From contig DS990613.1 of assembly GCA_000155715.1 (NCBI GenBank), forward strand, positions 1 through 40,982: 40,982 bases of DNA, given 5' to 3'. The translations under genes and the position numbers were made by a program. This document shows, piece by piece, positions 611-1,720 of the stretch. Below the pieces are notes generated by a model. That model saw only the letters and a list, made by a program, of their open reading frames with translations. It was not told where the DNA came from and made no database searches. Source of the stretch: a gamma proteobacterium HTCC5015 (lineage in GTDB: Bacteria > Pseudomonadota > Gammaproteobacteria > HTCC5015). Position 1 is the first letter of the stretch. Each line of letters begins with the position of its first letter.

Positions 611-666
611 TGTTTTGTCTCCAAAAGCGCCTAGAGGCGCGGTTGTAGAGCGAATGTCGCTCGATT

Positions 667-693
667 TTAGCACTCTGTTCATAAGAGTGCTAA
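667..693. promoter_or_regulatory. CIRCE operator (HrcA binding site) upstream of rpoH
   Basis: TTAGCACTC (667-675), a 9-nt spacer, then GAGTGCTAA (685-693). This is an exact match to the CIRCE consensus, a 9-bp perfect inverted repeat with N9. In established knowledge CIRCE is bound by the repressor HrcA and normally controls groESL or dnaK. Here it lies in the ftsX-rpoH gap, ending 57 bp upstream of the rpoH start codon and about 11 bp downstream of the probable start of transcription. Repression of rpoH by HrcA is inferred from this placement. Confidence 0.93.
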
Positions 694-710
694 TCGTGGA
701 ATTGGTTCCC

Positions 711-760: not shown

Positions 761-1720
761 CTACTGGCCGGGCTCAATTTCTTTGAGGTGGCGGCCCACA
801 GCGAGCCACGAACCAAAGTAGCCGAGGGCAATGCTGAGCAGCAGTAGAGTGAGACCGCCGCCGAAACTGAGGTAGGACAGACTAAAGTTGGATTGATAAA
901 GCCCGGCGAGGCGCGAGGTGGGGCCCGCCAGAAAAGCGAGGCCGATCGAGACCAACAGCCAAGCGGCAATGCCGCCAAACAAGCCGTACCAAAAGCCCGT
1001 GTAGAGAAAGGGGCGACGCACAAAGGTGTTGGTCGCACCGATCAGCTTTTGCACGCGAATTTCGCGCGCGCGATTTTGAATGTCGAGACGAATGGTGTTG
1101 CCAATCACCAGTATCACCGCCACGCCCAACAGCGAGGCAATCACTAGCAAGCCGCGTTGAACCATGCTCATAATACCGAGCAGGCGTTTTACCCACTGCA
1201 TATCGAGCTGCACGATGTCCACCTCGGGCAGGCGTTCCATTTCGTGGCGAAAGCGATCCAGCGCTTGGGGATCTTCCTTGTCGATTAAAGGAGTAATCAC
1301 AATGACCGCGGGCAGAGGGTTGTTGTCGAGGGCGTTGAGCGCATCACCGAAGCCCGAGCGATCGGCAAACTCATTGAGCGCCTCGCTCTGGCTGATGTAG
1401 CGTAGCGATTCGATTTGCCGATGGGGTTTTAAGCGGTTGCTTAGATTTAATCCCTGCTGCTCAGACACGTGGGGTGCGAGGTACAGCGAAATCTTAGTGG
1501 CGCCATCCCAGCCACCGCTGAGGCGCTGGGCGTTTTTTAACGCCACATAAAAGCCCGTGGGTAGGGCGAGGGCAATGGCGATGACGGCAACCGTCATGGC
1601 GCTGGGCCCGGGGAATTGGTAGAGCCGCCCCAAGCTGCTCACAAACACGCGGAGGTGGTGAGTGGCGTAACTACTGAGTTGTGTTTTTAGTTCGACTTTG
1701 CGGCGTTGAAACAAGGCCAT
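761..1720 (-). CDS. ftsX: Cell division protein FtsX (permease-fold subunit of FtsEX)
   Basis: Inner-membrane partner of the FtsE ATPase. FtsEX couples ATP hydrolysis at the septum to activation of periplasmic peptidoglycan hydrolases through an extracytoplasmic loop. The 319 residues match the usual family length. A cytoplasmic N-terminus is followed by a first membrane segment near residues 40-62, a large periplasmic domain to about residue 180, then three more hydrophobic segments, with the conserved NTIRLDIQNRAREI stretch after the second. The start codon overlaps the ftsE stop by one base (TAATG), so the two are translationally coupled. It is downstream of ftsE and upstream of rpoH on the minus strand. 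The FtsX assignment rests on the ftsE linkage and membrane layout and is secure. Confidence 0.95.
   Translation of the reverse strand: MALFQRRKVELKTQLSSYATHHLRVFVSSLGRLYQFPGPSAMTVAVIAIALALPTGFYVALKNAQRLSGGWDGATKISLYLAPHVSEQQGLNLSNRLKPHRQIESLRYISQSEALNEFADRSGFGDALNALDNNPLPAVIVITPLIDKEDPQALDRFRHEMERLPEVDIVQLDMQWVKRLLGIMSMVQRGLLVIASLLGVAVILVIGNTIRLDIQNRAREIRVQKLIGATNTFVRRPFLYTGFWYGLFGGIAAWLLVSIGLAFLAGPTSRLAGLYQSNFSLSYLSFGGGLTLLLLSIALGYFGSWLAVGRHLKEIEPGQ

Follow-up and report, generated by a model that had tools for sequence, protein, structure and literature searches.

The DNA analyzed here is a 40,982-nucleotide stretch of contig DS990613.1 from the gammaproteobacterium HTCC5015, referred to below as the window. 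It starts at base 1 of its contig (C15), and its first gene, rpoH, which encodes the heat-shock sigma factor sigma-32, is truncated at the left edge of the window, where the contig ends. The neighbor upstream of rpoH is ftsX; protein identities were checked against NCBIfam and Pfam (Table 1). Since ftsX (ending at 761) and rpoH (starting at 610) both lie on the minus strand, an operator in the gap between them has only rpoH downstream. Positions 667-693 of this gap read TTAGCACTCTGTTCATAAGAGTGCTAA and, in a motif scan of the window, match the TTAGCACTC-N9-GAGTGCTAA palindrome of the CIRCE operator with no mismatches, about 56 bases from the rpoH start codon.

Table 1. Genes and predicted regulatory elements in the rpoH-ftsX region of the window
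Feature	Position	Strand	Basis or remark
rpoH, 5' part, 203 codons	2..610	-	ATG at 610; NF005143 sigma-32, 321 bits (NCBIfam)
Sigma-70 type -10, TAAAAT (candidate)	664..669	-	CIRCE right arm plus three flanking bases; TG two bases before (extended -10)
CIRCE operator (predicted)	667..693	-	Exact TTAGCACTC-N9-GAGTGCTAA; rpoH-strand sequence TTAGCACTCTTATGAACAGAGTGCTAA
Sigma-E type -10, TCTTA (candidate)	682..686	-	Last TC of CIRCE left arm plus first three spacer bases
Sigma-70 type -35, TTAGCA (candidate, 4/6)	688..693	-	Within CIRCE left arm; weak
Sigma-E type -35, GGAACCA (candidate, 5/7 to GGAACTT)	703..709	-	16 bases upstream of CIRCE; column conservation
ftsX, neighbor upstream	761..1720	-	TIGR00439 FtsX, 371 bits (NCBIfam)

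When the whole window was scanned, this was the sole match to CIRCE with up to three mismatches, and none of 100 dinucleotide shuffles of the window yielded such a match, ruling out a chance origin of the palindrome. Across the 2.63 Mb genome it is also the only match with at most two mismatches. One other CIRCE-like site, on contig C29, has three mismatches; chance alone would give about 0.9 such sites (our own arithmetic), and the C29 site, being within that expectation, was rejected as a second genuine operator. A preliminary description of the locus had reported an exact CIRCE between ftsX and rpoH and had considered such a match unlikely by chance, and both statements hold. It had also proposed, as checks, a search of the genome for hrcA and an alignment of the rpoH upstream regions of relatives.

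The genome encodes a single HrcA (PF01628, E 1.9e-63), which is intact, scoring 325.7 bits against the TIGR00331 equivalog (cut-off 197.2) over residues 6-340 of 348. The gene is unlinked to dnaK, and its neighbor is one that we take, from our own reading of the sequence, to be ispG. No CIRCE with up to three mismatches was found upstream of hrcA in this genome; several relatives have one at that position. Both dnaK and groEL are present, as is rpoE (TIGR02939, 301.5 bits versus a cut-off of 236.15). The contig that carries groES (C24; L005 1-20) has just 18 bases ahead of that gene's start codon, and the position at which a CIRCE would be expected there lies off the assembly. Two genomes of the same family but of different genera (G001 and G002) each have CIRCE twice, before groES and before rpoH. 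In G002, four repeats with an exact 60-base spacing, sharing about 28 bases (TTTCTAAGCTGCGTGTGCGGCAGTGAA), are located downstream of rpoH (L016 2801-3018), and resemble the beginning of a CRISPR array with repeats of the type I-F kind.

To place this locus in the class as a whole, 369 gammaproteobacterial genomes were searched for CIRCE, RpoH and HrcA, and the region upstream of rpoH was read in 110 of them, those with the highest RpoH scores and hence a non-random sample. Sites were counted with up to four mismatches (those observed had zero to three), and in a reversed-sequence control the best match to CIRCE never fell below five mismatches. CIRCE precedes rpoH in 83 of the 91 genomes with hrcA versus 6 of the 19 without it (Fisher P 1.3e-7 for this sample of the class; this and the other P values given here overstate independence, as the genomes are related and kinship was handled only by identity and family thinning). 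At the level of families, CIRCE precedes rpoH in 52 of the 54 that have hrcA and in 3 of the 12 that lack it. Judged by these predicted sites, CIRCE before rpoH is the usual arrangement among HrcA-bearing gammaproteobacteria, not a rare one. The conservation anticipated in the preliminary description was thus found, both in the two other genera of the family and across the class. HrcA control of rpoH, which it had put forward as something unusual, is supported by the comparison, but the arrangement is in fact the common state in HrcA-bearing members of the class.

Three of the six exceptions that have the operator but no hrcA are assemblies that are 72-79% complete (G101, G319 and G180). Two more, G205 and G078 (L178 and L191), share a decayed site, TGTGCACTC...GAGTGTTAA. 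Both belong to one genus of family f76 in which hrcA was undetected, and another genus of that family has hrcA; the decayed site looks like operator decay following loss of the repressor. Eight of the 91 genomes with hrcA had no CIRCE before the copy of rpoH that was examined. Two of these eight, G337 (L061) and G179 (L224), contain two RpoH matches each, and the copy examined in each has no CIRCE.

A second, named sample was gathered by RpoH similarity and compared for CIRCE only. There, CIRCE is located before rpoH in Pseudoalteromonas, Alishewanella, Rheinheimera, Dyella, Thioalkalivibrio and others, and none was found before rpoH in Aeromonas, Shewanella, Ferrimonas, Alteromonas, Psychromonas or Pseudomonas sp. 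WN033 (L146). E. coli K-12 likewise has no CIRCE ahead of rpoH. The rpoH CIRCE of Xanthomonas-type lineages, of Competibacteraceae and of a few other groups carries a mirror-symmetric change, TTAGCAGTC-N9-GACTGCTAA (rpoH upstream regions of L092, L113, L122, L124, L131, L138, L145, L059 and L203). The change affects both arms (GCAGTC with GACTGC), occurs at 7 of 150 rpoH sites, and may mean that HrcA specificity has shifted or that the operator is weaker.

The palindrome, which is all that the preliminary description had noted, is indeed conserved, but the conserved unit is larger and includes sigma-E and sigma-70 type promoter elements. We aligned 135 rpoH CIRCE sites on the palindrome to obtain a profile, and counted individual elements on 150 rpoH sites. 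In the profile, conservation is confined to the interval from about -18 to +29, which contains three conserved stretches besides the arms. The first is GGAACTT at -16 to -10. The second lies in the N9 spacer, with T at +9 (62%) and A at +11 (80%), which together with the left-arm TC form TCTNA; GGAACTT and TCTNA are 16 bases apart, which is the layout of a sigma-E promoter. The third consists of A, A and T at +27 to +29 (T in 93%), which together with the right-arm TAA form TAANNT. The left-arm hexamer, TTAGCA or TTGGCA, is located 18 bases upstream of TAANNT, a sigma-70 type layout with its hexamers in the two arms. The class pattern of this candidate promoter, TTRGCA-N18-TAANNT, is accordingly made up of the two arms and three bases to their right.

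GGAACTT, matched at five or more of its seven bases, occurs at the single offset -16 in 97 of the 150 rpoH sites, about a third falling short. With one genome per family (55 genomes) it is found at -16 in 36, versus a mean of 0.7 and a maximum of 6 at other offsets, and T at +29 is found in 51 of the 55. The left arm contains TTGGCA in 47 of the 150 sites. A lone A to G change in the left arm (TTAGCA to TTGGCA), which brings it closer to a sigma-70 -35 element, was seen at 46 sites and the mirror change at only 1 (P 7e-13), a bias in the direction expected if the left arm doubles as a -35 element. In the set that lacks CIRCE, which includes E. coli, a sigma-E-like site matching at 9 or more of 11 positions precedes rpoH in 42 of 53 cases, versus 23% in shuffles, consistent with a predicted sigma-E promoter outliving the operator.

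In the window itself, the sigma-E candidate reads GGAACCA-N16-TCTTA, with a -35 element matching at five of seven bases and a complete -10 element relative to the sigma-E (RpoE, ECF02) consensus GGAACTT-N16-TCTNA. The sigma-70 candidate, TTAGCA-N18-TAAAAT, agrees with TTGACA/TATAAT at 9 of 12 bases, has a spacer within the usual 16-18 bases, and was the sole promoter-like site between 560 and 800 in a consensus scan (0.3 in shuffles). The composite operator-promoter pattern is matched without mismatch in the window, which is one row of the 135 in the class profile from which the pattern was derived. When up to three mismatches are allowed, 18 of the 398 phylum genomes searched contain the composite, once in each, and 17 of the 18 are in this class.

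CIRCE is commonly found downstream of the promoter that it controls, and the site before rpoH could accordingly be a plain HrcA operator following a promoter unrelated to it, with conserved flanking bases that are there by coincidence or belong to a longer HrcA site. As a control, we examined 33 groES CIRCE sites from the same class. None of the 33 has GGAACTT at -16 by the same count of at least five of seven bases, A at +11 is found in 3 of 33 versus 119 of 150 rpoH sites (P 3e-14), and T at +29 in 2 of 33 versus 140 of 150 (P 5e-24). The groES sites have a fixed layout of their own, interlocked differently from that of rpoH: CTTGA is located at -28 (29 of 33) and TAT.A just before CIRCE (29), as a TATNAT that ends on the first base of CIRCE, and the rpoH sites have neither. 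Given that the rpoH features are absent from groES CIRCE, they are not an HrcA requirement, ruling out GGAACTT plus AAT as an extended HrcA site. The way in which the sigma-70 type -10 element of groES ends exactly at the first base of CIRCE is what would be expected of a plain operator; before rpoH, however, GGAACTT, the TNA of the spacer and the T at +29 are additions missing from the groES sites, and the flanking features are asymmetric, unlike the site of a dimer. Moreover, the sigma-E spacing GGAACTT-N16-TCTNA persists where there is no CIRCE, as in TGAACTT-N16-TCTGA of E. coli, thus disfavoring a plain operator, which we regard as an unlikely explanation. That the HrcA operator is interlocked with the rpoH promoter region is, on this evidence, highly probable.

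HrcA activity depends on GroE. In the mechanism that we propose, HrcA, held active by GroESL when there is no stress, would bind CIRCE at 667-693, where the operator overlaps the predicted sigma-E -10 element and both predicted sigma-70 hexamers (Table 1). Because CIRCE covers these elements, bound HrcA would exclude RNA polymerase from both promoters. Unfolded protein would divert GroEL from HrcA and so free the operator, upon which sigma-70 would transcribe rpoH, as would sigma-E under envelope stress. The predicted transcription starts are near 676 (sigma-E) and 657 (sigma-70), which would give leaders of about 66 and 47 bases, respectively. HrcA control of rpoH is supported by the comparison of predicted sites; we infer HrcA binding, repression, the use of two promoters and GroE titration, and it is plausible that GroE titration of HrcA sets the supply of sigma-32.

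The predicted leaders also bear on another possible role for the palindrome, that of chiefly an RNA hairpin in the rpoH leader, acting in stability or thermosensing, instead of a DNA operator. A transcript starting upstream of CIRCE would fold the hairpin (z -3.5 for 560-700), and the mirror changes described above (GCAGTC with GACTGC, 7 of 150) preserve the stem. The predicted transcripts, however, would begin within or beyond CIRCE and hold the right arm only or neither arm (z -1.2 and -0.6), and given that neither leader holds the whole palindrome, a leader hairpin is unlikely as its main role. The palindrome also tracks the presence of hrcA, and its arm bases are fixed beyond what mere pairing would require, leaving the hairpin as a very improbable explanation. 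It is scarcely credible that the operator is a relic through which HrcA no longer controls rpoH here: the HrcA network of this organism is predicted from sequence and the region upstream of groESL is off the assembly, but all 18 positions are exact, hrcA is intact, and genomes without hrcA mostly have no site or a decayed one.

The textbook heat-shock circuit derives from E. coli, which has no HrcA and in which rpoH is not under HrcA repression. Returning to an operator interlocked with the promoter region, we favor, on balance, a wider interpretation in which the ordinary control of rpoH in gammaproteobacteria is one fused element. The HrcA operator would itself provide the sigma-E -10 element and both sigma-70 hexamers, and signals from the cytoplasm (GroE/HrcA), the envelope (sigma-E) and growth (sigma-70) would thus join within about 46 bases; in E. 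coli and its relatives HrcA and the operator would have been lost and the sigma-E promoter retained. If HrcA control is common in HrcA-bearing gammaproteobacteria, the E. coli circuit would be a reduced form, and E. coli, without HrcA and the CIRCE switch, looks like the exception. Relatives that have HrcA would then run the two classical heat-shock systems in series, with GroE availability acting on HrcA activity and HrcA activity on sigma-32 supply. The fused element also predicts, base by base, which positions serve the operator and which the promoter.

The general HrcA/CIRCE regulon (groESL and hrcA-grpE-dnaK) uses the same 27-base operator and the same repressor family, and the same genomes carry that operator before groESL. 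The arrangement described here differs in that the target is the gene for the heat-shock sigma factor, and in that the operator overlaps two predicted promoters instead of following one. An exact CIRCE before rpoH has been listed for Geobacter sulfurreducens, a member of another phylum, in Table 8 of Rodionov et al. 2004 (PMC545781); its position relative to the start codon is -51, versus about -56 here. G. sulfurreducens appears there as one species among those studied, with no class-wide rule and no promoter overlap described. On the beta, gamma and epsilon groups that paper refers to Permina and Gelfand 2003, a study that deals with these regulators in these groups and may list rpoH as an HrcA target, in which case part of the present finding may already be known.

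Similar to the candidate promoters described here, sigma-E and sigma-70 promoters are paired before rpoH in E. coli and P. aeruginosa as P3 (sigma-E) and P4 (sigma-70), P3 and a sigma-70 promoter being described for P. aeruginosa rpoH (PMC13104619). In our own comparison, E. coli rpoH has TGAACTT-N16-TCTGA and no CIRCE, and CIRCE is also absent from the Pseudomonas sp. WN033 locus. SigE of Bordetella bronchiseptica transcribes rpoH (fam) in vitro from a sigma-E type promoter directly upstream, as predicted here, and HrcA and CIRCE go unmentioned in that paper (PMC3490749). No description of an overlap between CIRCE and a promoter at rpoH was found in the parts of the literature available to us, which did not include Permina and Gelfand 2003. 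Compared with these systems, an operator before rpoH appears ordinary in itself, and it is the promoter anatomy interlocked with CIRCE that appears to be new.
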